From positions 1-34,728 of the forward strand of contig CANRBX010000030.1 of the NCBI GenBank assembly GCA_947628955.1: a stretch of DNA of 34,728 nt, given 5' to 3'. This stretch comes from an uncultured Lachnospiraceae bacterium. Its GTDB lineage: Bacteria > Bacillota > Clostridia > Lachnospirales > Lachnospiraceae. Below the pieces are notes generated by a model that was not told where the DNA came from, did no database searches, and saw only the letters and a list, made by a program, of their open reading frames with translations. Of the stretch, positions 1,848-33,094 are shown in pieces (positions within the stretch are counted from its first letter, which is position 1; each line of letters begins with the position of its first letter). A program made the translations under genes and the position numbers.

Positions 1848-1995
1848 CTGTTTCTTTTTGTTTCTATTTATTTCTGTCTCTGCTTATTTCTGCCTCTATT
1901 TCTTTCTGTCTCTGCTCATTTCTGTCTCCATTTTATTTCCGTCTCTACATCTTTCTGCCCCTCTGTCTTTCTGTCTCTATTTTCTTCAGCCTTTA
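1848..1995. repeat. Degenerate pyrimidine-rich tandem repeat
   Basis: The plus strand is strongly C/T-rich and iterates variants of TTTCTGTCTCTGC with spacers such as TTATTTC and CATTTC, roughly 18-22 bases per unit. It fills the gap between two convergent genes, the permease ending at 1827 and a small gene ending at 1993. I see no coding sequence in it. Confidence 0.7.
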
Positions 1996-2151
1996 TTTTC
2001 TTCCCGGCCTTCCGGCAGATCCGCGGCCGGCGCCCTCGAGCAGCTTTTTCACTTCCTCCACAGAGTGCCACAGCTGCAGTGCCCTTCTGTGAACCTGCGG
2101 CTTATCATAGGTGAAACGGTACAGCTTTCCCTTAAACCTGTCTCTTCGCAT
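1993..2151 (-). CDS. Small basic protein of unknown function (52 aa)
   Basis: I do not recognise this protein. It reads MRRDRFKGKLYRFTYDKP and continues with a helical LWHSVEEVKKLLEG segment and a Gly/Arg tail. I chose the ATG at 2151 because GGGGAG precedes it by six bases; longer in-frame starts at 2181 and 2277 lack a good ribosome site. It follows trmB in the same direction with about 160 bases between, which hold repeated copies of the trmB 3' end. The composition of residues 1-40 looks like a real protein. Conservation is untested. Confidence 0.5.
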   Translation of the reverse strand: MRRDRFKGKLYRFTYDKPQVHRRALQLWHSVEEVKKLLEGAGRGSAGRPGRK

Positions 2152-2237
2152 GGCCGTCTCCCCGGTTATTCTTCCTCTCATACTTATTCTATGCCCGAAC
2201 CGGTATCCTGATCTCAGTTTCTCCCTCTGCAAAGCGC

Positions 2238-2347
2238 AGGCCTGCCCCGGCTCCTGCGCGGTCGTCTCCACTCTCATACACTGCCCCGGCTTCTATGGGC
2301 CGCCTCCGCTCTCATACATCGTTCTGGCTTCTGTGCGGCCGCCTCAG
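2238..2347. repeat. Three imperfect 38-39 base tandem copies of the trmB 3' end
   Basis: CTCTCATACA begins units at 2271 and 2309. A third, partial unit from about 2238 shares the CTGCCCCGGCTCCTG core. The copy at 2309-2347 encodes the last codons of TrmB (LRRPHRSQNDV and stop). The other two lie past the stop codon. Confidence 0.75.
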
Positions 2348-2983
2348 TACCACCTTGCAGATCGGATTTCCCTGCGAGGAAAAGCGTTCCTCATACTCGG
2401 TCATGATATTCCCCTCCATCATCTCCGCGTCATGATGCAGGTCAAACGTGCACTGCTCCACAGTCCAGCCGGCCGCCGCGGCTTCCTCCAGCGCAAATTC
2501 AAACAGCGTCCGGTTGTCTGTCTTGAACTCCACCTTTCCGTCCGGTTCCAGAATGTAATCGTAGCGCGCCAGAAATTCCCGGCCCGGCAGGCGCCGCTTC
2601 GCATGGCGGTCCTTCGGCCACGGATCCGAAAAGTTCAGATAGATCCCCGCGACCTCGCCCTCCCCGAACACCTCCGTCAGGTCCTCGGCCTCCATGCGCA
2701 GAAAGAACAGATTGGAGGGGGCATCGTCCTCCCCGCGCTTTTCCAGCGCGCGCAGGAGCACGCTGGAATACTTCTCGATCCCCACATAATTCCGCTCCGG
2801 GTGGCGCAGCGCCAGCTCCGTGATGAACCTTCCCTTGCCCATCCCAATCTCCAGGTACAGCGGATTCCCGTTTCCGAACACCGTATCCCAGCGGCCCTTC
2901 TTTTCCCGCATCACATCCTCATGTATCACATACTCGCTCGCCGCGATCGCCTCCCGCGATCCAGGTATATTTCTCAGCCTCAT
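2312..2983 (-). CDS. trmB: tRNA (guanine-N7)-methyltransferase
   Basis: A cytoplasmic SAM-dependent enzyme that makes 7-methylguanosine at position 46 of tRNAs. Its 223 residues match the usual family length. The SAM-binding loop reads LEIGMGKGRF, and the family signature NFSDPWPKDRHAKRRL is intact. GGAG precedes the ATG by eight bases. The final codons lie in a tandemly repeated 39-base unit, so the extreme C-terminus may be a recent addition. A good promoter lies at 3048-3076. Confidence 0.96.
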   Translation of the reverse strand: MRLRNIPGSREAIAASEYVIHEDVMREKKGRWDTVFGNGNPLYLEIGMGKGRFITELALRHPERNYVGIEKYSSVLLRALEKRGEDDAPSNLFFLRMEAEDLTEVFGEGEVAGIYLNFSDPWPKDRHAKRRLPGREFLARYDYILEPDGKVEFKTDNRTLFEFALEEAAAAGWTVEQCTFDLHHDAEMMEGNIMTEYEERFSSQGNPICKVVLRRPHRSQNDV

Positions 2984-3047
2984 TTTCCACTCTCCGTCCG
3001 GTATGATTTATGAAGTGTCCGCCGCCCATGAGGACGGCGTTTGCTCT

Positions 3048-3076
3048 ATTCTAAACCAAAACCACGGGAAGGTCAA
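3048..3076 (-). promoter_or_regulatory. Sigma-A promoter for trmB
   Basis: On the minus strand TTGACC is followed after 17 bases by TAGAAT. Transcription would start about 60 bases upstream of trmB. Confidence 0.7.
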
Positions 3077-3102
3077 TCGCCCGCCAATGTCAGTTAGTTA
3101 AC

Positions 3103-3160: not shown

Positions 3161-3199
3161 TTTCACAAACATTTAATTTTTATTTCCTCTGCCTGCTTG

Positions 3200-9417: not shown

Positions 9418-11022
9418 ATGAGATCACAAAATTCTTCCCGGACGATCCGGTTTCTGCGCATTCTCGCAATGCTTCTGTTCCTCCTGACTGCAGTTTCCAT
9501 ACAGAGCCGCTTCTGCCCGGCCCAGGTCGTCTCTGCGGCCAAAGCATCCGCCGGAAAGACGGTCAAAGTCCCGTTCCGGGGCAAAAGCGGACGCTACCTC
9601 GTGCGCCGCGGCGGGGAATGGTATCTCTACAATAAATACGACAGGCCGCTCGCAGGCATCCGGCACCTGGATATCACCAGAACCGGCGGGCTCTATACAG
9701 GCTACTATATGTTTGACGGCAGCGGCCGGCTGATCCGGAAAAAGGGCGTATATTACTTTCAGAATAAGACGGTCTCCGGCGTTACCTTCAACGGATTCTA
9801 CCGCACCACCTCCATGGGGCGTTTCCCGGACAAGGTCGGAGAAGGGCTCTGCTGGCTTCCGTCTGTCCGCTGTCAGGGAAAACAGTTCGGCGGATATTAT
9901 TATTCCACGGATTACGGCAGGCTGACCGCAAAATCACAGATCCGCCTCCTGGAAAATGTCAAAATCGGCAAAGCCACGTTCGACGGATATTATTATTTCG
10001 ACCAGTACGGGCAGCTCTGCACCAAAGCAGATTTCCACACGATCCGGCAGACCGTCGGGGGAAAGATTTTTGACGGAACTTATTATTTCGGGGATACTCA
10101 AGGAAAATTATTGAGAAAGAGCGGCTGGGTCCTCGTCGGCGGCAAAAAGTATTACATCACCAAAACCGGAAAAATGCTGACCGACTGCTGGAAATCCGGT
10201 TATTATCTGCAGTCCGACGGCACGATCGCAGTCAGCAGAAAGCTTCCCGACGGGAGCTACGTGGGATATGACGGGCGGAAATGTTCAGACGCGGATGCCG
10301 CGCTTTTCTCCCTCGGGAATCAGCTCCGCAGCCTGGTCGGCGGCTACAGCGGCACCTGGTCCGTCTACGTGAAAGATCTGAAAACCGGAGGCGTCATCAA
10401 TATCAATGAGCGCTCCATGTACCCGGCCAGCACGATCAAGGCCTTCGTGATGGCGGCCACCTTCGACCGGATCAGCAGGGGAAAGCTTTCCTACAACGCA
10501 ACGATCCGCCGCCTGATGACAGACATGATCACGGTCAGCGACAACGAATCCTACAACGCGCTTGTCCGATATAACGGCTCGGGAAATTTTCTCTCCGGCA
10601 CCTCGGAGATCAACGATTATCTGAGCAAAAACGGCTACTCCAACACCAGCTGCCGCCACACTCTGCACCCATCGTCCTCCCCCAGCACCGGCTACGGGAG
10701 CAACACGACCTCCGCAAAGGACTGCGGCGTTCTGCTCGAGCGGATCTATCAGGGCGAATGCGTGTCCGCCGCCTGGTCGCAGGAAATGATGAATCTGCTC
10801 TGCCGCCAGACGCGCCGCTGGAAGATTCCGTCCGGCATTCCCGCCGGCGTCAAAGTCGGCAACAAGACCGGCGAGACCAGCAGCGTCCAGAATGACATGG
10901 CTGTCGTCTTCGGCCCAAAAACCGATTATGTGCTCTGCGTCTTCTCAGCGGTCGGAAACGAATATTACTCCAACACGCGGATCCGCGAGATCTCCCGCAG
11001 AGTGTACCAGTTCCTGAATTGA
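9418..11022 (+). CDS. Secreted wall-binding protein with class A beta-lactamase-like serine hydrolase domain
   Basis: A 534-residue secreted protein. Residues 1 to about 40 form a signal peptide. Residues about 50-295 are wall-binding repeats (GYYYFDQYGQL, GKKYYITKTGKML). The C-terminal domain has the active-site triad of penicillin-interacting serine enzymes: SxxK at Ser338-Lys341 (ASTIKAF), SDN at 374-376 and KTG at 483-485. I could not place the class A Glu166 loop, so it may be a D,D-peptidase or an unassigned wall hydrolase, not a drug-resistance enzyme. GAGGTGA precedes the ATG. Its repeats resemble those of the NlpC/P60 protein at 3289, suggesting shared wall anchoring. Confidence 0.88.
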   Translation: MRSQNSSRTIRFLRILAMLLFLLTAVSIQSRFCPAQVVSAAKASAGKTVKVPFRGKSGRYLVRRGGEWYLYNKYDRPLAGIRHLDITRTGGLYTGYYMFDGSGRLIRKKGVYYFQNKTVSGVTFNGFYRTTSMGRFPDKVGEGLCWLPSVRCQGKQFGGYYYSTDYGRLTAKSQIRLLENVKIGKATFDGYYYFDQYGQLCTKADFHTIRQTVGGKIFDGTYYFGDTQGKLLRKSGWVLVGGKKYYITKTGKMLTDCWKSGYYLQSDGTIAVSRKLPDGSYVGYDGRKCSDADAALFSLGNQLRSLVGGYSGTWSVYVKDLKTGGVININERSMYPASTIKAFVMAATFDRISRGKLSYNATIRRLMTDMITVSDNESYNALVRYNGSGNFLSGTSEINDYLSKNGYSNTSCRHTLHPSSSPSTGYGSNTTSAKDCGVLLERIYQGECVSAAWSQEMMNLLCRQTRRWKIPSGIPAGVKVGNKTGETSSVQNDMAVVFGPKTDYVLCVFSAVGNEYYSNTRIREISRRVYQFLN

Positions 11023-11043
11023 GGCAGTCTCCCATCCGGGCGC

Positions 11044-11212
11044 GGGCCGCAAGACAGCTCCTGCCCCGGCAAATTCCGGCCTTCGGGCCCGCAAGACAGC
11101 AGCTCCTGTCCCGGCAAATTTCGGCCTTCGGGCCCGCCAGTGTGGCTATGCGCCGAAGTTATCATACGATTCCTGTCCTGACTAAGTCCGGCCCGCGGGC
11201 CCGCTGGATTCA
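11044..11212. repeat. Tandem 41-45 base repeats with UUCG hairpins
   Basis: Units begin at 11044, 11085 and 11130 with GGGCC(C)GCAAGACAGC, then a CCGGCAAATT core and CGGCCTTCGGGCCCG. A more divergent unit near 11160-11212 ends in a GGCCCGCGGGCC palindrome. GGCC-TTCG-GGCC is a hairpin with a stable cUUCGg loop and occurs twice. The block fills the gap between the convergent serine hydrolase and rarA genes. No T tract follows, so it is not a plain intrinsic terminator. Confidence 0.75.
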
Positions 11213-11216
11213 CACC

Positions 11217-12533
11217 TTAGTCCTCGTGCAGCCAGTCGAGGTATCTGCGGATCGTCTGCTCGTAGCCGTTCCCGGATGGCTCGTAGAATCTGCGGCCCGC
11301 AAGCGCGTCCGGCAGATACTGCTGATGAGAAAAGTGCTTCGGATAATCGTGCGCATATTCATAGCCGATCCCGCGGCCGAGCTTCTGCGCGCTCTTGTAA
11401 TGGCTGTCGCTCAGATGCGCCGGGACAGCCGCAGGCGTCTCCTGTACGGCGCGCATTGCGGCAGCGATCGCATTCGTTGCAGAGTTGCTTTTCGGGGCTG
11501 TCGCCACATACAGGGCCGCCTGCGCCAGGATCAGCTGTGCCTCGGGCATCCCGATGCGCTCCACGGCCTGCGATGCGGCCACCGCCACCTGAAGCGCCTG
11601 CGGGTCTGCATTGCCGACGTCCTCCGACGCGCAGATCATGATCCTCCTGGCAATAAAAGTAACGCTCTCGCCCGCGTAAAGCATTCTGGCCAGATAGTAA
11701 ACCGCTGCGTCCGGATCCGAGCCGCGCATGCTCTTGATAAAAGCGGACACGGTATCGTAATGATTGTCCCCGTCCTTGTCATAGCGCACCACCCGCTTCT
11801 GAATACATTCGGAGGCCACTTCCAGTGTGATATGGATGACGCCGTCCGCTCCGGGCGAGGTTGTCAGCACGCCGAGCTCCACAGCATTCAGAGCTGCCCG
11901 CGCGTCTCCTCCGGCAATATCCGCCAGAAATTCCACGGCATCCTCGTCGATCGCGGCCCGGTAAGCGCCCATTCCGCGCTCCGTATCATATACCGCACGC
12001 TCGATCAGCGTCCGGACATCCTCCTTTGCAAGCGGTTTCAGTTCAAAAATCACCGACCGGGAAAGCAGCGCCCCGTTGACCTCAAAATAGGGGTTCTCCG
12101 TCGTCGCGCCGATCAGGACCAGCGTTCCGTCCTCAACAAACGGAAGAAGATAATCCTGCTGCCCCTTGTTAAAGCGGTGGATCTCATCCACAAACAGGAT
12201 CGTCTTTTTTCCGTACATGCCAAGGTTGTCCTTCGCGGCCTTTACAACCTCCTCCATGTCCTTCTTCCCCGCCACCGTCGCATTGATCTGCATAAATTCC
12301 GCGCTCGTCGTATTCGCGATCACCTTCGCGAGCGTCGTTTTTCCGGTGCCCGGAGGCCCGTAAAAGATCAGAGAGCTCAGCTTGTCTGCAGAAATCGCAC
12401 GGTACAGCAGCTTATCTTTTCCAATGATGTGCCGCTGCCCGACCACTTCCTCCAGCGTCCTCGGCCGCATCCGTGACGCCAGCGGCGCCTCATTTTTCAT
12501 CGTTTTCGTCCTCGCGTACTCAAATAAATCCAT
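11217..12533 (-). CDS. rarA: Replication-associated recombination protein A (AAA+ ATPase)
   Basis: RarA/MgsA is a clamp-loader-like AAA+ ATPase that acts at stalled replication forks. The 438 residues match the family. Walker A is GPPGTGKTT (59-67) and Walker B is ILFVDEIHRF (112-121). Arginine-finger and sensor regions follow (GATTENPYFEVNGALLSR), as does the C-terminal tetramerisation part (YEYAHDYPKHFSHQQYLPD). GAGG lies upstream of the ATG. It is the last gene of a leftward run, and 29-base tandem repeats occupy the gap to the deacetylase gene. Confidence 0.95.
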   Translation of the reverse strand: MDLFEYARTKTMKNEAPLASRMRPRTLEEVVGQRHIIGKDKLLYRAISADKLSSLIFYGPPGTGKTTLAKVIANTTSAEFMQINATVAGKKDMEEVVKAAKDNLGMYGKKTILFVDEIHRFNKGQQDYLLPFVEDGTLVLIGATTENPYFEVNGALLSRSVIFELKPLAKEDVRTLIERAVYDTERGMGAYRAAIDEDAVEFLADIAGGDARAALNAVELGVLTTSPGADGVIHITLEVASECIQKRVVRYDKDGDNHYDTVSAFIKSMRGSDPDAAVYYLARMLYAGESVTFIARRIMICASEDVGNADPQALQVAVAASQAVERIGMPEAQLILAQAALYVATAPKSNSATNAIAAAMRAVQETPAAVPAHLSDSHYKSAQKLGRGIGYEYAHDYPKHFSHQQYLPDALAGRRFYEPSGNGYEQTIRRYLDWLHED

Positions 12534-12562
12534 CTGTATTTCCTCTTATCTCAAATTCCATA

Positions 12563-12680
12563 TTCAACGCTTCTCAAAGTTTTCGTTCCATTTCAACGCT
12601 TCTCAATGCTCTCGTTTCATTTCAATACTTCTCAATGCTTTCGTTCCTTCTTCAATGTTTCCGTTCTCAATATCTCTATG
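12563..12680. repeat. 29-base tandem repeat, three and a half copies
   Basis: Units start at 12563, 12592 and 12621, each opening TTCAA and continuing CTTCTCAATGCTTTCGTT. A decayed unit starts near 12651. The array sits just past the 3' end of the deacetylase gene and would be in the rarA leader. No spacers are present, so this is not a CRISPR array. Confidence 0.85.
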
Positions 12681-12715: not shown

Positions 12716-13678
12716 CTATTCCAGTATCAGCTCGTCTACTGTGACAAATTCATAATCCTGCTCTTTCAGGCGGTCAACGATCTGCAGCGCCGCCTCCACG
12801 GAAGTGTCATAATAATCGTGCAGCAGAATGATATCCCCGCTTTGCGTATCCTCGAGCACCCGCCGCACGATGTCCGACACATTCCTGGTCAGCCAGTCCT
12901 TCGGATCCACATCCCACAGCACCGGGATCATCACAAAGGAATATTCCATCTCTTTGTTCCACTCTCCGAACGGCGGCCTCACAAACTCCGCATCGCTTCC
13001 GGTCAGCCTGCGGATCAGACGGTTTGTCTTTTCGATCTGCTCACATGCCTCCTGGCCGCTCAAGCCGCTGATTTTGACATGATCATAAGTGTGGTTCCCG
13101 ATCAGATGTCCTTCCTCGTCCATCCTGCGGATGAGTTCCTCGTTGCCCGGAATGTTTCTCCCGACCACAAAGAATGTGGCCTTCACGCCCCGCTCCTTCA
13201 GGCCGTCCAGAAGCCGTTCCGTGAAAACCGGATGCGGTCCGTCGTCAAACGTAAGCGCCACACATTTCTGCTCCTCCTGCTCCGGATCGTCCTCAGACGA
13301 TCCTCCCTCCGAGGTGTCTGCGTTCCCCAGTGCGGCCGCCTGTCTCTCCCCTCCATCTGTGTTCCCCGATGAGGCGGCCCATTCACCCGGGCTTCTCTCC
13401 GGCGCATCCTGCGCCGAGCTCGCGTTTCCCGCAGCCATAGCATCCGACGCACTCACGTTCTGCGCAATGCTCGCATCCCCTCCTGCCGCAGCATTCGGAG
13501 CTTCCGGCTGCGTCCCGCTTCCCGGTCCGTGCCTCGCAAGTTTCACAATATCCGTATAGGTCAAGAAGGCCAGGATCATCGCAAGCCCCCAGATAAACAG
13601 GGATTTCTTGATCCTGGCTCCTATCTCTGCAAACAGGCCGTGTTCTTCCGGCCCTTCCTCGTTTCCCGCATGTCTCAT
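12716..13678 (-). CDS. Membrane-anchored polysaccharide deacetylase
   Basis: A carbohydrate esterase family 4 enzyme that removes N-acetyl groups from peptidoglycan or another surface glycan. After a short cytoplasmic start, residues 25-45 form a membrane helix. Residues 50-138 are an Ala/Ser/Glu-rich linker with weak repeats. The catalytic domain is complete: TFDDGP (143-148, metal and base Asp), NHTYDH (His196, His200), RPPFG (234-238), DVDPKDW (256-262) and LLHD (285-288). The upstream GAGG is about 11 bases from the ATG, a loose fit, so the start is less certain. Deacetylation often protects the wall from lysozyme; that role is inferred. Confidence 0.92.
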   Translation of the reverse strand: MRHAGNEEGPEEHGLFAEIGARIKKSLFIWGLAMILAFLTYTDIVKLARHGPGSGTQPEAPNAAAGGDASIAQNVSASDAMAAGNASSAQDAPERSPGEWAASSGNTDGGERQAAALGNADTSEGGSSEDDPEQEEQKCVALTFDDGPHPVFTERLLDGLKERGVKATFFVVGRNIPGNEELIRRMDEEGHLIGNHTYDHVKISGLSGQEACEQIEKTNRLIRRLTGSDAEFVRPPFGEWNKEMEYSFVMIPVLWDVDPKDWLTRNVSDIVRRVLEDTQSGDIILLHDYYDTSVEAALQIVDRLKEQDYEFVTVDELILE

Positions 13679-13739: not shown

Positions 13740-13858
13740 GTCTGCGGCGGCCTGTGATTCTCCGTCTCATTTGCCGTCCGGCTGCCCGTGCACGTTCGCC
13801 TGATTCATCGTCTGGCTGCACATGCGCGCCTGTATCATTCGTCGTCCGACGGCCTGTA
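13740..13858. repeat. Degenerate repeats of the 3' end of the 13835 gene
   Basis: On the minus strand the last codons (ACAGGCCGTCGGACGACGA then TGA) recur past the stop as ACAGGCGCGC...CAGACGATGAATCA, CAGGCGAACG...CGGACGGCAAATGA and CAGGCCGCCGCAGACGGAG. That makes about three decayed copies of 30-45 bases toward the deacetylase gene. Confidence 0.55.
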
Positions 13859-22798: not shown

Positions 22799-22855
22799 TC
22801 ACACGAATGCATTCCGCTGCGCGTCGTACTCATAGTTTACGGCGCGCTGCTTTTT
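22799..22855 (-). pseudogene. Detached 3' end of a DUF4250 gene
   Basis: Bases 22806-22855 match 23646-23695, the end of the intact DUF4250 gene, with three mismatches in 50 and a perfect 35-base core. Read on the minus strand the remnant encodes KKQRAVNYEYDAQRNAFV and a TGA stop. There is no upstream part of the gene here, only the end of yoeB. Confidence 0.85.
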
Positions 22856-22891
22856 ACACTGCATCTTTGTGGATTTTTCGCAGATGAAATT

Positions 22892-23161
22892 CTATTTGTC
22901 TGCATAATGCCCGCGGCAGTGCGCAATATATATTCTGCCGTCTTCCATATGATATACAAGTCTGTCTTTTTCATTAATACGACGGCTGAACTCACCGGAA
23001 AGTTCTCCGGAAAGCGGCTCTGGTTTCCCAATTCCGTTCAGGCATCCATTGCGCTCAATGTCTTTGATGAGCTGGTTAATTCGTTTTACCATCTTTTTAT
23101 CCTGCGTCTGCCAATATAAATAATCTTCCCATGCGTCGTCAGACCAGATTTTTTCACTCAT
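22892..23161 (-). CDS. yoeB: Txe/YoeB family mRNA interferase toxin
   Basis: An 89-residue RelE-fold ribonuclease toxin that cleaves mRNA on the ribosome when its antitoxin is lost. The family pattern is clear: IWSDDAWEDYLYWQTQDKK, then INQLIKDIERNG, GIGKPEPLSG, FSRRINEKDRLVYH and the C-terminal HCRGHY with the catalytic His/Tyr. Its start overlaps the antitoxin stop by four bases (ATGA), typical of coupled toxin-antitoxin pairs. One substitution stands out: GELSGEFSRR where YoeB usually has an aromatic residue before SRR (SG-Y/F/W-SRR), a conservative change. Confidence 0.95.
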   Translation of the reverse strand: MSEKIWSDDAWEDYLYWQTQDKKMVKRINQLIKDIERNGCLNGIGKPEPLSGELSGEFSRRINEKDRLVYHMEDGRIYIAHCRGHYADK

Positions 23162-23424
23162 TCATCAACCTCGATTAATTCATGCGGCGTTCCTTTTCCA
23201 TCGCGAAGCTCCTGAACAGATTTCTTCACATAAGCAATATTCCTGTCTGAATAAAACGGATCCGCAGTCTGGGCAATCTCGAAAGGAATACGTTTCTCGC
23301 GCAAAACTGCTTTCACAAAAAGGTTAATAGCCGTGGATGTGTTCAGGCCTACATTTGAGCAAAATTCGTCAAAGCTGGCCTTATCGCGTGCATCCACGCG
23401 CGCCGTCAGTGTAGCCTGCGCCAT
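23158..23424 (-). CDS. RelB/DinJ family antitoxin
   Basis: An 88-residue ribbon-helix-helix antitoxin that neutralises YoeB and probably represses its own promoter. The DNA-binding start is ATLTARVDARDKASFDEFCS followed by the helix GLNTSTAINLFVKAVL. The C-terminal half, which wraps the toxin, is charged. The pairing of a RelB/DinJ-type antitoxin with a YoeB-type toxin, where Phd/YefM antitoxins are the classical partners, is a mixed combination. GAGGAGGT lies upstream of the ATG, and the promoter is at 23458-23486. Confidence 0.93.
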   Translation of the reverse strand: MAQATLTARVDARDKASFDEFCSNVGLNTSTAINLFVKAVLREKRIPFEIAQTADPFYSDRNIAYVKKSVQELRDGKGTPHELIEVDE

Positions 23425-23442
23425 AAGTAATACCTCCTCTGT

Positions 23443-23503
23443 GTTCGAACTGTCATGATTATATCACCATTGTATTCTATTTGCAAGTTATTGTAGCACA
23501 ATA
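23443..23503 (-). promoter_or_regulatory. Promoter and dyad operators of the toxin-antitoxin pair
   Basis: On the minus strand TTGCAA (23481-23486) is 17 bases from TATAAT (23458-23463). Palindromes flank it: GTTCGAAC at 23443-23450, and TATTGT-AGC-ACAATA at 23489-23503 just upstream of the -35. Either could bind the antitoxin. Confidence 0.65.
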
Positions 23504-23528
23504 GACTTACATACAACAAAAAGGACGT

Positions 23529-23592
23529 TACTGTTCAAATCAGACCGAAACACTTGTTGCTACTGTTCATACCAGACCGAAGCACTTGCTGC
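23529..23592. repeat. 32-base tandem repeat, two copies
   Basis: The units at 23529-23560 and 23561-23592 open TACTGTTCA and share CAGACCGAA and CACTTG, differing at about five positions. They lie between the antitoxin promoter and the DUF4250 stop. Confidence 0.85.
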
Positions 23593-23638
23593 TGAGGCCG
23601 TAGGAAAATGATTCAAAAGGCCGGCAGGAACCCCAAGC

Positions 23639-23815
23639 CTAAACAAATGCATTCCGCTGCGCGTCGTACTCATAGTTTACAGCGCGCAGCTTCTTCTCGA
23701 TCTCATCGCGTGACACGTCAGCGTCCGCGCAGAAATCGTCGAGTGAACTGTAATTGTCGCGAAGCTGTGTGTTTACATAGCTCAAAAGCATGATCGGATC
23801 CTGTGGCAGATTCAT
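23639..23815 (-). CDS. DUF4250 domain protein (58 aa)
   Basis: A small cytoplasmic protein of unknown function, MNLPQDPIMLLSYVNTQLRD at the start, matching the DUF4250 pattern common in gut clostridia. The second half, LDDFCADADVSRDEIEKKL, looks like a short helix-turn-helix fold, and NYEYDAQRNAFV ends it. AGGAGGT lies eight bases before the ATG at 23815; longer reading frames upstream lack a site. Its 3' end is duplicated 840 bases away, beyond the toxin-antitoxin pair. Confidence 0.88.
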   Translation of the reverse strand: MNLPQDPIMLLSYVNTQLRDNYSSLDDFCADADVSRDEIEKKLRAVNYEYDAQRNAFV

Positions 23816-23892
23816 ACCGGTATACCTCCTGTTTTTTTCTTTTGATAGTTCCTGTTGTTTTCCTGTCCGTTTTCGTCTCTCCAAAGTAAGAG

Positions 23893-23926
23893 GCGGGCCG
23901 GCCTGCCGTTTTTTATGCCGGCCCGC
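23893..23926. terminator. Stable hairpin downstream of clpB
   Basis: GCGGGCCGGC (23893-23902) pairs perfectly with GCCGGCCCGC (23917-23926) around a 14-base loop containing TTTTTT. Leftward transcripts read CTCTTACTTT after it, a weak U tract. It probably ends clpB transcription. Confidence 0.55.
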
Positions 23927-23939
23927 ATTCTTCCCGCTG

Positions 23940-24120
23940 CAGCTGTCGGCCAACGGATACTGCATCTGTCGCCGCCCCGCATTTCTCTGCGCATTGATCT
24001 CCGCTGCGGTTCTCAGCTCTCAGCCCTCAGGCGACAGACACTGTATCTGCTGTCAGCCCCGTCCTCTGTGCATCAGTCTCCGCTGCGGCCCTCAGCCGAC
24101 AGACACTGTGTCTGCCGTCA
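23940..24120. repeat. Two downstream copies of the clpB 3' end
   Basis: CGACAGACACTGTGTCTGCC (24097 on) covers the last ClpB codons (TADTVSVG). A close copy with ACACTGTATCTG starts at 24038, and a decayed one with ATACTGCATCTG at 23957. TCTCCGCTGCGG and CTCAG are shared between units. Spacing is about 65-81 bases. Confidence 0.75.
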
Positions 24121-26683
24121 GCTCTCCGTTCTCAACGCGGAACACGATCGTATCCTCCATACCTGCCCTGCCGGAGAGGATCAGTCGGGCCGCCAGCGTT
24201 TCCACATTTTTCTGCAGGTAGCGTTTCAGCGGGCGGGCGCCGTAGACCGGGTCGTAGCCGCCCTCGATGATGTAATTCTTTGCATCATCGTCAAGCTTCA
24301 GCTGTATCTCCTGCGGCGCAAGGCGCCTGTTGAGGTCTGCCACCATCAGATCGATGATGTTCCCGATGTTTTCCTTCGTCAGCGGTTTAAACATGATGAT
24401 CTCGTCGAGACGGTTTAAAAACTCCGGGCGGAAGCTGGCGCGCAGCTGTTCCATGACCATATCCTGGGCCTCCGGGCGGATACTGCCGTCCGGCTCGATC
24501 CCCTCCAGGAGGAACTGTGAGCCGATATTTGAGGTCATGATCAGGATCGTATTCTTGAAATCCACGGTGCGTCCCTGTGAATCCGTGATCCGGCCATCGT
24601 CAAGCACCTGCAGCAGTACATTGAACACGTCCGGATGCGCTTTCTCCACCTCGTCAAAAAGCACGACGGAATATGGCTTGCGGCGCACCGCCTCGGTCAG
24701 CTGGCCGCCTTCCTCATAGCCGACGTATCCGGGAGGCGCTCCGATCAGGCGGGACACGGAATGCTTCTCCATATATTCACTCATATCGATACGTACCATG
24801 TTCTGTTCGTCGTCAAACAGGCTTTCTGCAAGCGCTTTCGCAAGCTCGGTCTTGCCGACGCCAGTCGGCCCGAGGAACAGGAAGGATCCGATCGGCTTGG
24901 TCGGATCCTTGATCCCGGCCTTGGAGCGCAGGATCGCCTCTGTGACCTTCTCCACTCCGTCGTCCTGCCCGATCACGCGCTTATGCAGCTCCTCATCAAG
25001 AGCCAGGATCTTCTCGCGCTCACCCTGTGTCAGCTTCGACACCGGAATCCCGGTCCAGCGGGAGATGATCTTCGAGATCTCTTCCTCTGTCACACTCTCG
25101 TGCACGAGCGACATCTCGCGGCTGTTGACCTTCTCTTCCTCAATCGCCAGCTGCTTCTGCAGCTTCGGCAGCTCGCCGTACTGCAGCTCCGCCGCGCGGT
25201 TCAGATTATACTCGCGCTGTGCCAGCTCGATCTCCTTGTTCATCGCCTCGATCTGCTCACGGAGCACGGACAGATTCTCAACGGCTTTCTTTTCATTGTC
25301 CCACTGCGCTTTCTGCGAGTTAAACTCATCGCGCAGCTCGGCCAGCTCGCGCTGAAGCACCTCCAGACGGTCGTGGCTCGGCTTGTCCGTCTCCTTTTTG
25401 AGCGCGGCCTCCTCGATCTCCATCTGCATGATCCTCCGCTGCAGCTCATCAAGCTCGGTCGGCAGGGAATCCAGCTCGGTCTTGATCAGGGCGCACGCCT
25501 CATCCACAAGGTCGATCGCCTTGTCCGGCAGGAAACGGTCAGAAATGTACCGGTGCGACAGCGTGGCCGCCGCCACCAGTGCGCTGTCTGTGATCTTTAC
25601 CCCGTGGAACACCTCATAGCGCTCCTTCAGGCCGCGCAGGATCGAGATCGTGTCCTCCACGGTCGGCTCGTCCACGAGCACCGGCTGGAATCTGCGCTCA
25701 AGCGCCGGATCCTTCTCGATGTATTTGCGGTATTCATCGAGCGTCGTCGCTCCGATGCAGTGCAGCTCGCCGCGCGCCAGCATCGGCTTGAGCATATTGC
25801 CGGCATCCATCGCTCCCTCGGTCTTGCCCGCGCCGACGATCAGGTGCAGCTCATCGATAAACAGAATGATCTCACCCTCGCTCTTGCGCACTTCCTCGAG
25901 CACGGCCTTCAGTCTCTCTTCAAATTCGCCGCGGTACTTTGCCCCGGCCACAAGCGCTCCCATGTCGAGCGCGAAAATCTTCTTATTTTTAAGACCCTCC
26001 GGCACGTCGCCGCGCACGATCCGCTGCGCCAGCCCTTCGACCGCCGCGGTCTTGCCGACGCCCGGCTCGCCGATCAGCACAGGGTTGTTTTTCGTCTTCC
26101 TCGAAAGGATACGGATGACATTGCGGATCTCCGCGTCACGCCCGATCACCGGATCGAGCTTCTGATTCCGCGCCCGCTCAACCAGATCCTGCCCGTACTT
26201 GTTCAGAGTGTCATACGTCGCCTCCGGATTGTCCGAGGTTACACGCTGATTGCCCCGCACCGTCGAAAGCGCCTGCAGGAAACGCTCCCGTGTGATCCCG
26301 AATTCATTCCAGATCTGCTTCATGGACGGGCTGGGATTGCTCAGAAGCGCCAGAAACAGGTGCTCAACCGATACATACTCATCGCCCATGCGCTTCGCCT
26401 CGTCCTCGGCGCTGATCAGCGCCTTGTTCAGATACTGGCCGATGTACGCATTGCCGCCCGACACCTTAACCCGGGCATTGATTGCCTGCTCCACGCGGTT
26501 CTCAAAGTATTCCCGCTGGATCTCCATCTTCTCAATTAATTTGCCGATCAGGCTGTCCTCCTGCATGAGCAGCGCGTACAAAAGATGCTCCTGCTCGATC
26601 TCCTGATTCCCGGCTTCCATCGCGATCTTCTCCAGGTCGTTGACCGCCTGGACAGATTTCTGCGTAAATTTACTGAAGTTCAT
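24092..26683 (-). CDS. clpB: ATP-dependent disaggregase ClpB
   Basis: A hexameric Hsp100 chaperone that threads aggregated proteins apart together with DnaK. The 863-residue protein has the Clp-N repeats (1-150), the first AAA+ module with Walker A GEPGVGKT (205-212), a long coiled-coil middle domain that defines ClpB, and the second AAA+ module with [10 protein letters not shown] set the start at 26683 ([14 protein letters not shown]) because GGGGGAGGTGG lies six bases upstream; an in-frame extension to 26794 has no ribosome site and runs into the leader. A CIRCE operator overlaps the promoter. Its last codons lie in a repeated 3' unit. Confidence 0.97.
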
Positions 26684-26782
26684 AAAGCCACCTCCCCCAC
26701 GGCTGCAGTGCGGATATCCTCCGGAAGGTATTATGTCCGGAAGGCACGATATCATTCTCCGCTCTGTCTTTGTTACATCCGC

Positions 26783-26811
26783 ACTATAACACATGTTGTT
26801 AGCACTGTCAA
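26783..26811 (-). promoter_or_regulatory. Sigma-A promoter for clpB
   Basis: On the minus strand a consensus TTGACA is followed after 17 bases by TATAGT. The -35 lies inside the CIRCE element. The leader of about 95 bases holds two copies of TCCGGAAGG. Confidence 0.85.
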
Positions 26812-28742: not shown

Positions 28743-29136
28743 GCATGGAGCCGGAATATCTGTCCGCCTGTTTCCGATCTGCACATTTTTCTGTACGGGA
28801 ATCGGGGAAATCCGGAAAATATAACGGAAATTTTTAAATCTCTTGTGCCTGATTTATTGACCTTTTCGGGTTTATAGTGTATTGTAAAGACAGGGAAATC
28901 TCTCACGAAAGATTCCCGGTCCGGTGTCCTGTTCCGGCAGTACAGCGGAGGCATAAATATCTGAGAAGGGGGCAATGGGGAGACGGCGGGGCAGCCGGAA
29001 ATGCCATATCACACGACAGTAAATAAACATGAGACATATAATTTAAGGCATCGCAGCCAGGCATCAGATCGCAGCAAAAGGAACTGTGTTCCGGCACAGG
29101 GGTCTGAGGACATGCGGTGCGGAAAGGAGGATTCAT
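28743..29136. other. Long leader region of the surface protein gene
   Basis: No gene is visible. After the promoter at 28857-28885 comes a leader of about 245 bases with a GGGAA(A)TCT/AGATTCCC hairpin near 28891-28917 and a GGAAC/GTTCC hairpin near 29080. It matches no riboswitch class I recognise. Confidence 0.45.
28857..28885 (+). promoter_or_regulatory. Promoter for the repeat-rich surface protein
   Basis: TTGACC is followed after 17 bases by TATTGT. Confidence 0.55.
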
Positions 29137-31887
29137 ATGAAACAGTACAAGAACTGGAAGAAACTGCTGATGCCGGCCCTGGTTCTGTCTCTTGCCCTGG
29201 CGGCGCCGCTGCAGGCGAGCGAGGATATTTCAGGGGCAGAGGATGAGATCATTATCGATGAAACGGGTACGGCGGAGGCGGCTTCTGCCGCGAGTGATGC
29301 ACCGGCGGCCAGTATCTCATCACAGGAGCCGTTCGTCAACGAGATAGCTGAACTGCCTGACGGATCATCCGTCCCGGCGGAAGTGACGGCGGATTCCGAA
29401 GCGGAGGCGGTCAGTCAGGGGGAACCTCAGACAGCCGCTGAGTCGGTCACGTTTTATCTGGACTGGAACGGGATCGACGGGCTCTTCGGCCACTGCCTGA
29501 CATGCACCCGCGAGTACAAGGACGGTGTAAAGCCTGACTTTACGGCGGATGACGCGGCGGTCTACGGATTAAACTTTGTGGCCGCTTATGAAAAAGAGTT
29601 TGACCAGAAATCTTCCGAAGAAAAATGGAAATTCCTGAGTGAAAAGTGGGCGCAGGAGACGCCTTACGGCTACAGGTTCCTGGGCTGGTCGACAGTGCCG
29701 GCGGGAGGACAGCTGATCACGTCTGACACCCCTGTTGAAGAAGGCATGAGCTTCTATGCATACTGGGAGAAGGACGGGAAAACCAATGCCGAATTTCAGC
29801 GCATTGATCCGGCGGCAGGTCCGCTGGATGCGATCCGCATTATAGCCGGGGACGGCACGCAGTTCCTCAGCGGAACACTGCACGCGAGCAAGCATGCCGA
29901 AACGGACAACAGCTTCACGCTGAACCTGTTCTATACGCCTGTCCGCGCAGAGATCAATGATATCACATGGAATGTTGCGGTAAGCAATAAGGTCACGCCT
30001 GAAATGTTATTCGGATCTGCGAAAAAGGCCGAGACCGCGGCAGTCACAGCGGGCACCGAGGCAACGGTTTCGGCAGTCCAGATAAAGGCGGAAGGATGCA
30101 GACTGACGATCACAAACACAGATAATAAAGAGCATGTGATCACGGTCAGCGCCACGGCAAAGGGCGCGGACGGCCGGGAGTTTACCTCCCTCTCGGATGC
30201 CACGCTCAGCTTTACCCATTTCTGGGATGAAGGCAATGTGACAGCACAGCCTGACTGCGAGACAAAGGGAAGCATCCAACATACCTGTACCGTCTGCGGG
30301 GAAACAAAAACAGAAGACATCCCAGCGCTGCAGCATGTATACAATAAAAGCAAAAACTCAAGCAGAGAAGATTATTATACGGTTACACCGATAAAAGAAC
30401 CCACCTGTACAGAAGAGGGCGAAAACGAGTACAGATACAAATGCCTGCGCTGCGGAAAAGAAGCCGCGCCGGAAAGAGCCAAAGCCCCGGCCCTCGGCCA
30501 CACCTGGAGCGAAACCGTACAGGCGCCTGCTTCCTGCAATAAGGATACGCTGACCAGGCATTGTACGAGATGTGAGCTGCAGGATGTCAGCCTGGTTCCG
30601 GCATACCATCCGGAGCTGCACCAGTGGACGGAGACAGAGAGATTCCACAACAGCTGCATGAGCGACATTGTTTACGAGAGATGTGCTGTCTGCAGGGAGA
30701 CGAGAAGCCGCACGGAAGCTGCGGACAATCCGGACTGCCACTCATACGCATATGACAGCAGCATGCGCAACGACTGCTATTACGTCACCTACACATTCAA
30801 ATGTGTCTACGGCTGCGGAGCCACTCAGGTTATGCTGAAAAGCGAAGAGGGCCATGCCTGGAGCGGCTGGACGACCACCGTTTCCTTAGACAAGACGACC
30901 GGAGCCATGACACGCGTCCGGACACGCACCTGCAGCCGCTGCCAGAAGCAGGAAACCGAGGATCTGGGCACCGTCGAGGTACTGCCTGAGACTCCTGCCG
31001 GGAGCGATCCGTCAGCAAGTCAGCCGGCGGCTCCCACACCGGCAGCTTCCTTCAATACCGGAAACACAGCGGCTCCTGCTCCTGCACCGGCTGCTTCCTC
31101 CAGTACCGGAAATGCAGCAGCTTCAGGCTCCGCGCCGGCTGCTTCCTCCAGTACCGGAAGCGCAGCGGCTCCTGCTCCTGCACCGGCTGCTTCCTCCAGT
31201 ACCGGAAGCGCAGCGGCTCCTGCTCCTGCACCGGCTGCTTCCTCAAGCACCGGAACTACAGCGGCTTCGGTAACCGCATCGGCTGCTTCCTCCGACACCG
31301 GAAGCGCAGCGGCTTCGGCCACTGCACCGGCCGTTTCCTCTGACGCCGGCAGTGCAGCAGCTCCGGCCGCCGCACCGGCTGCTTCCTCTGACACCGGAAG
31401 CGCAGCGGCTTCGGATACCGCACCAGCTGCTTCCTCCGACACCGGAAGCGCGGCGGCTTCAGATACTGCACTGACTGCTTCCTCCGACACTGACAGCGAA
31501 GCAGCTTCGGTCTCGGCACCGGCCGCTTCCTCCGATACGGAAAGCGCTTCGGCTGCTTCTTCCAGTACCGGCAGCGTGAAAAAGACAGAATCGAAGAAGA
31601 CCAAACCGGGAAAAACCGCATTCTCATATGCGAAGTCCGAGAAAAAGAAAAAAGTAACTCTCAAATGGGAAAAGAGCAGCAAAGCTACCGGATACCAGAT
31701 ACAGTATTCGCTGAATAAGAAGTTTTCCTCCGGCGTTAAAACGAAAAACGTCAAACAGCTGAACCTGACAGTCTCCAAACTCAAATCCGGAAAAACCTAC
31801 TATTTCCGTATCCGCGCATACAAGAAATCAGGAGATACAACCCTGTACAGCGCCTGGAGCAAAGTGAAAAAGGTAACAGTCAAATAA
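29137..31887 (+). CDS. Large secreted surface protein with CxxC repeats, Ala/Ser/Pro repeat region and FN3 domain
   Basis: A 916-residue exported protein of unknown role, probably an adhesin or wall-associated protein. Residues 1 to about 28 form a signal peptide (MKQYKNWKKLLMPALVLSLA). Residues about 90-210 look like an InlB B-repeat-type fold (YGYRFLGWSTVPAGG, FYAYWEK). Residues about 370-615 hold six cysteine-pair units (CTVCGE, CLRCGK, CTRCEL, CAVCRE, CVYGCG, CSRCQK) each followed by an aromatic or His segment, perhaps metal-binding. Residues about 630-810 are eleven 16-residue Ala/Ser/Pro units. The C-terminus is a fibronectin type III domain (ATGYQIQYSL, YYFRIRAYK). AAGGAGG six bases before 29137 sets the start. 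No sortase motif is seen. Confidence 0.85.
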   Translation: MKQYKNWKKLLMPALVLSLALAAPLQASEDISGAEDEIIIDETGTAEAASAASDAPAASISSQEPFVNEIAELPDGSSVPAEVTADSEAEAVSQGEPQTAAESVTFYLDWNGIDGLFGHCLTCTREYKDGVKPDFTADDAAVYGLNFVAAYEKEFDQKSSEEKWKFLSEKWAQETPYGYRFLGWSTVPAGGQLITSDTPVEEGMSFYAYWEKDGKTNAEFQRIDPAAGPLDAIRIIAGDGTQFLSGTLHASKHAETDNSFTLNLFYTPVRAEINDITWNVAVSNKVTPEMLFGSAKKAETAAVTAGTEATVSAVQIKAEGCRLTITNTDNKEHVITVSATAKGADGREFTSLSDATLSFTHFWDEGNVTAQPDCETKGSIQHTCTVCGETKTEDIPALQHVYNKSKNSSREDYYTVTPIKEPTCTEEGENEYRYKCLRCGKEAAPERAKAPALGHTWSETVQAPASCNKDTLTRHCTRCELQDVSLVPAYHPELHQWTETERFHNSCMSDIVYERCAVCRETRSRTEAADNPDCHSYAYDSSMRNDCYYVTYTFKCVYGCGATQVMLKSEEGHAWSGWTTTVSLDKTTGAMTRVRTRTCSRCQKQETEDLGTVEVLPETPAGSDPSASQPAAPTPAASFNTGNTAAPAPAPAASSSTGNAAASGSAPAASSSTGSAAAPAPAPAASSSTGSAAAPAPAPAASSSTGTTAASVTASAASSDTGSAAASATAPAVSSDAGSAAAPAAAPAASSDTGSAAASDTAPAASSDTGSAAASDTALTASSDTDSEAASVSAPAASSDTESASAASSSTGSVKKTESKKTKPGKTAFSYAKSEKKKKVTLKWEKSSKATGYQIQYSLNKKFSSGVKTKNVKQLNLTVSKLKSGKTYYFRIRAYKKSGDTTLYSAWSKVKKVTVK
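31030..31575 (+). repeat. 48-base in-frame tandem repeat, about eleven units
   Basis: Each unit encodes 16 residues close to PAASSSTGSAAAPAPA. Early units carry SSSTG and APAPA, later ones SSDTG and ASDTA, so two subfamilies expanded separately. The repeat forms a stalk between the CxxC region and the FN3 domain and is likely to vary in copy number. Confidence 0.92.
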
Positions 31888-31914
31888 ACAAAAAGCCTGC
31901 GAAAGCAGAAACAG

Positions 31915-31960
31915 TGCCGCAGAGGCCCGGAGATCCGGCCCTGCGGCATTTGTTTTATAT
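31915..31960 (+). terminator. Intrinsic terminator of the surface protein gene
   Basis: TGCCGCAG (31915-31922) pairs with CTGCGGCA (31941-31948). An inner GGCC-C-GGA/TCCGGCC stem has one bulge. TTTGTTTTATATTTG follows. Confidence 0.85.
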
Positions 31961-32021
31961 TTGTTTTATATTTGTTTATATATGCAGGAATTTTGCGCAG
32001 GAAAGTCAGGCAAAAAGGTGA

Positions 32022-32051
32022 TTGACAAAACACACGGACAGAAGAGATAAT
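32022..32051 (+). promoter_or_regulatory. Promoter for truA
   Basis: A consensus TTGACA is followed after 18 bases by GATAAT. Confidence 0.65.
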
Positions 32052-32209
32052 ACAGGCGGAAGAATACGGTTTTGTTCTTTATCAGCTGCAAAATTCAGCA
32101 GAAGCTGGTATTTCGCGTGTAGATTTATTGACTTGGGCAAAGTGCCGTCCTGCGGATTTTTCATTATTGCCTGTGCCGCCAACTGAAGGGCGGCGGAAGG
32201 GAGACCGAC

Positions 32210-33094
32210 ATGAAGCAGAATTACCGGCTGACCATCGCCTACGACGGCACGCGCTACCACGGATGGGAGGCCAAGCAGAATACTGAGATGACGATCCAGG
32301 GCAGGCTGGAGCAGGTGCTCGCGCGGATGGCCGGAGAGCCTGTGAAGCTGATCGGCGCCGGCCGAACCGATGCCGGCGTGCACGCGCAGGCCATGACCGC
32401 AAATGTGCATCTTGAGATCGGGCCGGGGCGCGAGCTCCCGGGCGCGGCCTTGGAGCGGGGCTTGGATCCGTGCCCGAACACACGACCAAAACAGGGCTTG
32501 GATCCGTGCCCGATTACACGGCCGGACACACGTCAGAGTCCTTCTGCGGCCGCAGCCCTTACGGGCTCTGAGGCCGCGATCCGCGACTATCTGAACCGGT
32601 ATCTCCCGGAGGACATCTGCGTCCGCGAGGTGAAGGCCGTATCCGACCGCTTCCACAGCCGCTACAATGCCGCCGGCAAAACCTACTGCTATACCTGCTA
32701 CGACGGCCTGTCAAAGCCGGTCTTCGACCGCCGGTATGTCTATGTCCTGGACCGCTCTCCGGATCTGAAGCTCATGCGCCGGGCGGCGGGATATCTGATT
32801 GGCACACACGATTTTGCGAGCTTCTGCGGCAACCCGAAAATGAAAAAATCCACCGTGCGCACGATCGAGTCCATCTCCATCGAACGGCACGGTGAATATC
32901 TGAAGTTTCTGTACAGCGGCGACGGCTTCCTGTACCACATGGTACGCATCCTCACCGGTACGCTGCTCGAAATCGGCTTCGGGCGGCGCGCACCGGAGAG
33001 CATACCGGATCTTCTCGCCGCCAGGCAGCGCGCACAGGCCGGTTTTCTGGCCCCTGCGCAGGGGCTCTGCCTCATGGAAGTGCGCTACCTGTAA
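32210..33094 (+). CDS. truA: tRNA pseudouridine synthase A with repeat insertion
   Basis: Converts uridine to pseudouridine at positions 38-40 of the tRNA anticodon arm. The catalytic Asp lies in GAGRTDAGVHA, and later family segments are intact (RYNAAGKTYCYTCY, THDFASFCGNP, FLYHMVRILTG). The 294 residues exceed the usual 245-270. The surplus is an insertion of about 45 residues (76-123), containing GLDPCP twice (from residues 84 and 96) encoded by a 36-base tandem repeat, placed just before DYLNRYLPEDICV. The frame is preserved, so the enzyme is probably active. AAGGGAG lies seven bases before the ATG. Confidence 0.95.
   Translation: MKQNYRLTIAYDGTRYHGWEAKQNTEMTIQGRLEQVLARMAGEPVKLIGAGRTDAGVHAQAMTANVHLEIGPGRELPGAALERGLDPCPNTRPKQGLDPCPITRPDTRQSPSAAAALTGSEAAIRDYLNRYLPEDICVREVKAVSDRFHSRYNAAGKTYCYTCYDGLSKPVFDRRYVYVLDRSPDLKLMRRAAGYLIGTHDFASFCGNPKMKKSTVRTIESISIERHGEYLKFLYSGDGFLYHMVRILTGTLLEIGFGRRAPESIPDLLAARQRAQAGFLAPAQGLCLMEVRYL
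32459..32530 (+). repeat. 36-base tandem repeat inside truA
   Basis: The units at 32459-32494 and 32495-32530 share GGCTTGGATCCGTGCCCGA and the pattern ACACG-CC. The 12-codon period keeps the frame. Confidence 0.9.

Follow-up and report, generated by a model that had tools for sequence, protein, structure and literature searches.

The question raised by this locus is whether the short tandem repeats found past gene ends, in gaps and inside genes of a Lachnospiraceae genome come from one mechanism shared at gene 3' ends or terminators, as an earlier note had proposed, or are mostly separate duplications that persist where they do least harm.

Sequences and methods

The window, meaning the whole stretch of DNA that was analysed, comprises 34,728 nt of contig CANRBX010000030.1 (assembly GCA_947628955.1, uncultured Lachnospiraceae bacterium of the gut). 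Its genome, referred to as G000, is assembled in 136 contigs, with 93.8% completeness and 6.2% estimated contamination. Arrays were called using TRF at score 40, and density was counted from 1.2 Mb of G000 outside the window. Eighty other Lachnospiraceae loci, all around tyrS, were used as the family control. Seven blocks were tested by local self-alignment against 60 dinucleotide shuffles per block. Gene calls were home-made, and the placement counts rest on them. Uniqueness of the repeat units was searched for 145 arrays in an 834-kb cut of G000.

Repeat blocks in the window

At least ten tandem blocks had been claimed for the window, with 13 blocks named. Twelve were recovered, nine by TRF and three (clpB, TruA and a weak one at 13740–13858, all absent from the TRF list at score 40) by local alignment; the DUF4250 block is not tandem. 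In all seven blocks tested, 0 of 60 shuffles reached the block's local self-alignment score, compared with 15/60 and 41/60 for two control stretches. The arrays are as follows.

490–578, plus strand: 2.5 copies of a 36-bp unit, in frame, where an AI-2E family transporter gene (379–1827; TRF, ORF, Pfam AI-2E_transport) encodes its N-terminal tail
1849–2006, no strand: pyrimidine-rich array that can be read in 16/32/65-bp registers, in the gap where the permease gene and trmB converge (TRF, 0/60 shuffles)
2244–2345, minus strand: 38-bp array, 2.6 copies, across the trmB stop codon (gene 2312–2983, minus strand; TRF, Pfam Methyltransf_4)
11043–11137, no strand: 2.2 copies of a 45-bp unit in a convergent gap (ORFs 9418–11022, plus, and 11217–12533, minus; TRF, 0/60 shuffles)
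12556–12666, no strand: 29-bp array, 3.4 copies, between a polysaccharide deacetylase gene (12716–13678, minus; Pfam) and a RarA-like ORF (11217–12533, minus; TRF, 0/60 shuffles)
13764–13857, minus strand: weak 26-bp repeat across the stop codon of the 13835–14473 ORF (local alignment score 22, 0/60 shuffles)
13963–14049, minus strand: in-frame 45-bp array, 1.9 copies, in the 13835–14473 ORF (TRF)
21798–21977, plus strand: 39/78-bp array, in frame, within the gene for a flavodoxin-like protein (21204–22790; TRF, Pfam)
24011–24133, minus strand: imperfect repeat of about 66 bp across the clpB stop codon (gene 24092–26794, minus strand; local alignment score 57, 0/60 shuffles)
31028–31554, plus strand: in-frame 48/144-bp array in a large ORF (29086–31887; TRF, ORF)
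32458–32523, plus strand: in-frame 36-bp duplication in a lineage-specific insertion of a TruA-like ORF (32210–33094; local alignment, alignment with seven relatives)

The aligned copies lie at 24011–24066 and 24077–24133 in clpB, at 32458–32487 and 32494–32523 in TruA (score 45), and at 13764–13789 and 13832–13857 in the 13835 block, which is weak in that clpB and trmB 3' ends of relatives score up to 24. The 13835–14473 ORF had no Pfam match, and a scan of the genome contigs with its protein as query found no relative. An additional weaker clpB copy near 23952–23990 was seen by eye only; the RarA-like name was likewise given by eye, and the large ORF 29086–31887 had been called a surface protein in the earlier note.

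All blocks that had been described as in frame (permease 36, flavoprotein 39, surface protein 48, membrane protein 45 and TruA 36 bases) were found again by TRF or alignment. The description of a last coding segment copied past the stop codon applies to trmB and clpB and, weakly, to 13835, but not to DUF4250, whose copies are 840 bp apart. In trmB and clpB this arrangement needs no special cause, because any duplication overlapping a stop codon gives it automatically; such an array leaves the encoded protein unchanged because the first stop is kept.

Since TRF at score 40 misses the window's clpB repeat, its silence on clpB in relatives is no control, and the clpB and trmB ends were therefore compared by local alignment. 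The clpB 3' end scored 12–24 in 14 relatives, against 57 in the window. The trmB 3' region scored 14–24 at 12 of 13 congener loci, and three of these 12 were still above their 40 shuffles; the thirteenth, in congener G011, scored 51 and has a different 68-bp array downstream of trmB. Save for this G011 array, the clpB and trmB arrays are without an equally strong counterpart at the same place in relatives.

Array density and uniqueness of units

TRF called 211 arrays in the 1.2 Mb of G000 (17.6 per 100 kb), and the window is typical of its genome for array load. The 80 control loci had 3.9 arrays per 100 kb, those 12 among them with a GC content of at least 52% had 4.0, and 19 pooled congeners had 9.0, with single congeners ranging from 0 to 19.3. 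The expectation of a density above that of related genomes thus held for most relatives (17.6 vs 3.9), but not for G011 (19.3, 140-kb sample); three single control loci were also near the G000 level (L159 23.6, L139 19.1 and L183 15.1). GC-rich congeners tend to higher density, with exceptions at 53% GC (G012 0, G018 0, G015 4.0). As G015 has the highest ClpB identity in the congener scan yet a low density (100-kb sample), array load does not simply follow kinship.

No match elsewhere in the 834-kb sample was found for the units of 128 of the 145 arrays, while 12 had one or two and five had three or more, so the arrays are mostly separate local duplications. Copy identity within the 145 arrays was 62 to 98%, consistent with the claim that copies differ in age. 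One of the five recurrent arrays lies in the window:

23529–23593, plus strand: tandemly duplicated 32-bp unit, the first part of a dispersed, structured element of about 55–130 nt (TRF, alignment)

The interval 23529–23592 had been listed as a tandem block filling a gap; a 32-bp tandem repeat is present, but its unit is the duplicated 5' part of the dispersed element, whose window copy extends to about 23622. The element occurs at 49 places in G000 with at most three mismatches to a 36-nt core. Short, palindromic, intergenic, foldable and in many copies, the 23560–23622 element is similar to REP/BIME- or MITE-like small dispersed repeats, from which it differs in that an Rfam search of the window at gathering scores gave no match. 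The element was rejected as the seed of the arrays in general, a reading that holds for a few of them only.

Reading frame and placement relative to genes

Inside genes of G000 the period was a multiple of three in 89 of 93 arrays, against 42 of 116 between genes, where remainders of 0, 1 and 2 were found in 42, 39 and 35 arrays. Arrays inside genes encode many T, A, P, E, Q and G and few hydrophobic residues.

With about 15 expected for each under random placement (14.8 for stops), 33 arrays of G000 span stops and ten span starts. Convergent gaps hold 1.00 arrays per kb, tandem gaps 0.68 and divergent gaps 0.34, and in tandem gaps 58 arrays are nearer the 3' side vs 29 nearer the 5' side. The reported 3'-end enrichment is therefore real in G000 but was at chance in the first congener pool of 22 arrays (intergenic 3 vs 3.1 expected, stop 1 vs 1.2). 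The control loci lean to the 3' side of tandem gaps too (14 vs 6), as general tolerance would give, and the 3' lean of the dispersed element (15 of 18 copies in tandem gaps) points to tolerance of the site. Among the matches listed in the literature search, no title concerned Lachnospiraceae minisatellites or 3'-end placement of bacterial minisatellites.

Origin of the arrays

Given the observed density, placement, reading-frame filter and uniqueness of most units, we consider it probable that these are mostly independent local tandem duplications (minisatellites), with a raised rate or tolerance, surviving where they are least harmful. Units of about 20–150 bp would be duplicated locally in this species and some congeners, possibly by slippage or template switching. 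Selection would then set placement, with survivors in 3'-side spacers, across stops and in frame in linker-like segments, and the 3'-end pattern would be mostly a survival pattern. Arrays are commonest past gene ends and, in multiples of three bases, in flexible protein linkers, most likely because extra DNA does least harm there. Against simple tolerance, the 82 convergent gaps of the 80 control loci hold no array, and 0 of 21 copies of the dispersed element lie in convergent gaps. A mutator by loss of mismatch repair was rejected, as MutS1 (match 1–839 of 840) and MutL (1–551 of 555) are present in G000 with no internal stops.

Instead, the duplications could be created by a mutational process linked to 3' ends or to the termination of transcription, such as R-loops, fork-transcription collisions or template switching at terminators, which we regard as unlikely. 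It would fit the excess of stop-spanning arrays and a gap model in which an extra rate per 3' end beats length alone (LRT p = 1.8e-9, 789 gaps); however, a model with 3' ends only is far worse (logL -348.8 vs -221.1), nine arrays lie in divergent gaps and 93 in genes, and in G011 and G023 the extra rate gives a slight gain (19 gap arrays). Likewise, tandem-gap arrays of G000 have a raised purine fraction on the transcript strand (0.617 vs 0.577, p = 0.013, n = 50), but the difference was not seen in G011 and G023 (0.608 vs 0.589, p = 0.31, n = 13). Inside genes, most of the purine excess can be put down to amino-acid composition (the synonymous part being 0.028 per array, p = 0.018), and an R-loop purine signal there was rejected.

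When the 60 bp preceding the next start were excluded, one of four zones tried, positions in tandem gaps were even (mean 0.52, n = 43); the mean was 0.43 with 30 bp (p = 0.17) and 0.63 with 90 bp (p = 0.03, towards the 5' side). A protected 5' zone before starts, whether hard or soft, gave no likelihood gain over length alone and was rejected as sole cause of the gap differences, so the tolerance reading rests on other lines. As the 3'-end rate improves the fit and the protected zone does not, a mutational share at 3' ends is possible. One special mechanism shared at 3' ends or terminators is left without support, because the unrelated dispersed element leans the same way and stop-overlapping duplications automatically pass the stop.

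Spaced repeats and cassettes

The DUF4250 block consists of two copies of a gene 3' end around a cassette.

22803–22855, minus strand: detached copy of the DUF4250 gene 3' end, next to the flavoprotein stop codon
22892–23424, minus strand: toxin-antitoxin cassette of RelB (23158–23424) and YoeB (22892–23161) between the copies (Pfam)
23643–23695, minus strand: 3' end of the intact DUF4250 ORF (23639–23965), the other copy of the spaced repeat (ORF, Pfam)

The copies (53 nt, 92% identical, 840 bp apart) are direct repeats flanking the cassette on both sides; as they are not tandem, the case is separate from the main minisatellite phenomenon. None of 17 congener DUF4250 loci, taken with about 1.5 kb on each side, gave a RelB/YoeB match, and homologues in congeners sit at other loci. 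ClpB is present on 14 of the 17, and in G004 (L040) the order flavoprotein, DUF4250, ClpB is kept without the cassette, as an unoccupied site. Accessory genes between two host 3'-end copies resemble integrative elements with attL/attR direct repeats, but here no integrase was recognised in the 840 bp (the two ORFs scanned against Pfam are YoeB and RelB, and a third ORF of at least 80 aa lies antisense to them), and the copies are only 92% alike and not tandem. The literature search listed no paper with the term 'DUF4250'.

A common origin for tandem and spaced repeats would be staggered breaks that are filled from both sides, giving a tandem duplication or, with captured DNA, a cassette flanked by duplicated target; we find this improbable. 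Examples would be DUF4250 around RelB/YoeB and a MoxR-like gene around DUF3990/DUF3791, among others. In favour, 1.23 Mb contain four spaced duplications (35–147 bp) with accessory or single genes between their copies (window, L198, L208 and L079). At the MoxR-like gene the cassette's final ORF has the host gene's end in place of its own last codons, unlike at a dedicated site. None of 17 congener MoxR-like loci, each taken with about 1.5 kb on both sides, has the DUF3990/DUF3791 cassette, which three congeners carry elsewhere. Against it, spaced repeats with at least one copy outside genes are few in G000 (seven in 1.23 Mb, two of them, L068 and L201, copies of the dispersed element), and their rate is higher in the 80 control loci (19 in 1.35 Mb); the six inspected there include palindromic dispersed repeats, homologous genes and a tRNA-like end. 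No Ku match was found in G000 (93.8% complete) or 24 congeners (0/25 genomes of the genus), which also speaks against it, and Ku-dependent end joining was rejected. That in this lineage, with no Ku found, a single break-and-fill process both stutters DNA and captures cassettes, preferring 3' ends, is correspondingly improbable.

L195 is another of the seven, and at L185 a 47-bp repeat resembling a tRNA 3' end was seen by eye around a Rep-like fragment. The 43-bp direct repeat that flanks the DUF3990 cassette in G015 was rejected as a third target duplication, one copy lying within an upstream region also found in G011.

It is highly improbable that what is seen is an ordinary repeat background raised through GC content, contamination or assembly, for although density tends to rise with GC among congeners (except G012, G018 and G015), L159, L139 and L183 match the G000 level and the assembly has the contamination and contig number given above, GC-rich control loci stay at 4.0 per 100 kb, copies differ by 2–38%, which assembly errors would not give, and in-gene periods keep frame.

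Relation to known repeats and significance

Bacterial minisatellites or VNTR loci are the basis of MLVA typing. As in these, G000 arrays have head-to-tail copies of tens of bases, above chance, in frame within genes (89/93) and frame-free between them; they differ in being about 4.5 times as dense as in the family control and in their excess on the 3' side of genes. The in-gene arrays also resemble the low-complexity in-frame repeats of surface and linker proteins in their multiple-of-three periods and enriched residues, but occur in housekeeping proteins as well, such as the TruA-like protein.

Should the density and placement be borne out in closed genomes, this lineage would be a natural case of a high load of short tandem duplications with MutS and MutL present. 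It would help to identify the replication or repair factor that governs the birth of minisatellites and to tell mutation bias and selection apart at the 3' ends of genes, and would warn annotators that gene tails and linkers in this lineage change by duplication.

Array density

Tandem repeat arrays were counted with TRF (period of at least 20) under identical settings in the source genome, an assembly of 3.5 Mb in 136 contigs of which the window is contig C30, and in 80 Lachnospiraceae loci. The source genome was sampled as 60 stretches of 20 kb (1.2 Mb) at chosen positions on contigs C1-C29, and the window was counted separately. The sample contained 211 arrays (17.6 per 100 kb) and the window 9; the load was uneven, with five of the first 40 stretches free of arrays and one holding 9. 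The 80 loci (1.35 Mb), all around tyrS and hence one neighbourhood per genome, contained 53 arrays (3.9 per 100 kb; 4.0 in the 12 loci with a GC content of at least 52%), and three single loci reached 15-24 per 100 kb. A TyrRS search put the window within Lachnospiraceae: the best of 80 retained matches was 86% identical and came from an uncultured Lachnospiraceae MAG, although the source genome itself may be absent from the collection. Strong arrays (score of at least 100) numbered 13.9 per 100 kb in the source genome, window included, versus 1.3 in the 80 loci. Other families of the order yielded 14 arrays in 14 stretches (275 kb, 5.1 per 100 kb), and E. coli K-12 one array in 50 kb.

Pooled congeners (19 genomes, 732.5 kb) contained 66 arrays, or 9.0 per 100 kb, ranging from 0 to 19.3 in single-genome samples that were small (1 to 140 kb). 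Two congeners, with 140 kb sampled from each, were loaded, G011 at 19.3 and G023 at 12.1 per 100 kb, and G015, which had the top ClpB identity, was low at 4.0 (100 kb sampled). The load is present in the source genome, G011 and G023 but not in G015, and is therefore a trait of certain species within the genus, not of a single locus. The repeat density noted in the window was borne out against the 80 loci and the pooled congeners, G011 being an exception.

Repeat blocks and their origin

Most of the 13 repeat blocks named in the earlier note were confirmed: nine were recovered by TRF, and the clpB and TruA blocks, plus weakly the block at the 13835 gene, by local self-alignment. In each of seven blocks tested by self-alignment the score was reached by 0 of 60 shuffles, and in two control stretches by 15 and 41 of 60. 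The DUF4250 block, however, is a spaced pair and not a tandem repeat, its two 53-nt copies (92% alike) lying 840 bp apart with the YoeB and RelB genes in between.

The repeat unit of 128 of 145 arrays had no match elsewhere in an 834-kb sample of the source genome; most of the arrays are therefore local duplications independent of one another. In the 145 arrays the copies were 62-98% identical (median 83), with a median period of 39 and a median copy number of 2.6. The clpB repeat scored 57 in the window versus 12-24 at the equivalent place in 14 congener loci, of which one (G011) still exceeded all of its 40 shuffles. The trmB repeat scored 36 in the window, 14-24 in 12 other congener loci (three exceeding all 40 shuffles) and 51 in G011, where the score stems from a different 68-bp array downstream of trmB. 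In the TruA-like protein an insertion longer than in seven relatives contains the 36-bp repeat. MutS and MutL matches in the source genome were nearly full length and without stops; Ku had no match there or in 24 congeners.

Multi-place repeats, palindromic by eye, were also seen in tandem (periods 75-109) at L065 3693-3924, L071 8684-8884 and L069 520-728.

Placement relative to genes

Genes in the source genome sample were called with a home-made caller (957 genes). Arrays spanning a stop and no start numbered 33, versus 10 spanning a start and no stop (p = 0.0006), where random placement expects 14.8 and 14.4. Convergent gaps held 19 arrays (1.00 per kb), tandem gaps 88 (0.68) and divergent gaps 9 (0.34; convergent versus divergent, p = 0.0064); the contrast was sharper in the earlier 834-kb cut (convergent 1.36, divergent 0.42 per kb). 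Within tandem gaps 58 arrays lay closer to the 3' side and 29 to the 5' side (p = 0.0025). Periods were divisible by three in 89 of 93 arrays inside genes and in 42 of 116 intergenic ones.

The 80 loci had no arrays across 82 convergent gaps; stops were spanned six times and starts four times, and tandem gaps divided 14 to 6 toward the 3' side. G011 and G023 together had 0.79 arrays per kb in convergent, 0.54 in tandem and 0.69 in divergent gaps, with seven stop-spanning arrays, one start-spanning array and a tandem-gap split of 8 (3') to 5 (5'). Placement in the first congener pool (22 arrays) did not differ from chance expectation. Therefore the 3' lean inside tandem gaps is general, and the convergent-gap excess is clear only in the source genome; the 3'-end placement described in the earlier note holds for that genome, but others are mixed.

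Dispersed element

A structured repeat of about 55-130 nt with inverted ends was located by its 36-nt core (at most three mismatches) at 49 places in the source genome, comprising window 23560-23622 and 48 others. The core occurred at nine places in G015, three in G004, two in G006 and one in G008, and was absent from the remaining 20 genomes searched. One of the long copies, at L014 1500-1635, has a folding energy of -58.1 kcal/mol (z -4.7); no Rfam match was found in the window at gathering scores. None of the 21 places in the source genome sample was inside a gene or a convergent gap; three were in divergent and 18 in tandem gaps, 15 of the latter closer to the 3' side.

Mechanism and survival

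A tandem duplication over a stop codon keeps the first stop; every extra copy therefore lies past it and the protein stays unchanged. This predicts the "copied past the stop" geometry reported for trmB and clpB; the geometry is seen, but it follows from any stop-overlapping duplication. Together with the same lean in the unrelated dispersed element, it weakens the case for a special 3'-end mechanism, and the shared mechanism at 3' ends or terminators was not supported. A mutational process at 3' ends may nevertheless contribute part of the placement: adding a separate rate for each 3' end made the gap model fit better than length by itself (p = 1.8e-9), and giving starts a protected upstream zone brought no improvement over length. 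These likelihoods assume that the gene calls (from the home-made caller) and the collapsed lengths of the gaps are exact. The tandem-gap lean became a trend when 30 bp before the next start were omitted, was gone at 60 bp and was reversed at 90 bp. Arrays inside genes lay in segments rich in T/A/P/E/Q/G and poor in hydrophobic residues, as tolerance predicts. On balance, we consider selection likelier than a mutational mechanism, with a mutational share possible.

Cassettes and spaced repeats

Two cassettes lie between copies of a host gene's end:
Window 22803-23695, RelB/YoeB toxin-antitoxin cassette between two DUF4250 3'-end copies
L198 1708-2880 (contig C25), DUF3791/DUF3990 cassette within a 58-bp repeat (95%) that covers the final codons of a MoxR-like ATPase gene and its 3' flank

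RelB/YoeB was absent within about 1.5 kb of 17 congener DUF4250 loci, in 14 of which ClpB adjoins DUF4250; G004 has the flavoprotein, DUF4250 and ClpB genes together without the cassette. RelB/YoeB relatives occur at other sites in five congeners (73-74% DNA identity), and further congeners gave weaker matches. The L198 cassette has three ORFs (one DUF3791, one DUF3990, one without a Pfam match), the final one terminating in the closing codons of the host gene. None of 17 MoxR-like loci in congeners contained it, though some of these loci are no more than 50-57% alike; it was found elsewhere in G011, G015 and G008. The ordinary reading is that the cassettes are remnants of integrative elements; that they and the tandem duplications have a common origin is no more than possible. 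In 1.23 Mb of the source genome, seven spaced direct repeats had at least one of their copies outside a gene, two being the dispersed element; such repeats were commoner in the 80 loci (19 in 1.35 Mb).

Further spaced repeats were observed, with the gene names at L079 and L208 and the reading of L185 made by eye:
L079 3416-5068 (contig C19), about 146 bp of a subtilase-like gene 5' end repeated beyond a nagA-like gene
L208 10660-12212 (contig C6), 35-bp terminator-like direct repeat on both sides of a lone ATPase gene that lies downstream from a metallophosphatase-like gene
L195 9915-14880 (contig C22), 43-bp repeat, its copies 86% alike, occupying two spacers within the ribosomal protein operon
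L185 11380-12263, 47-bp identical repeat resembling a tRNA 3' end, around a short segment that includes a Rep-like fragment, perhaps the decayed remains of an integrative element

Overall, the genome-wide minisatellite load with a 3' excess is real in this species and some congeners; such a load is of a kind already known in bacteria, and its degree is notable.
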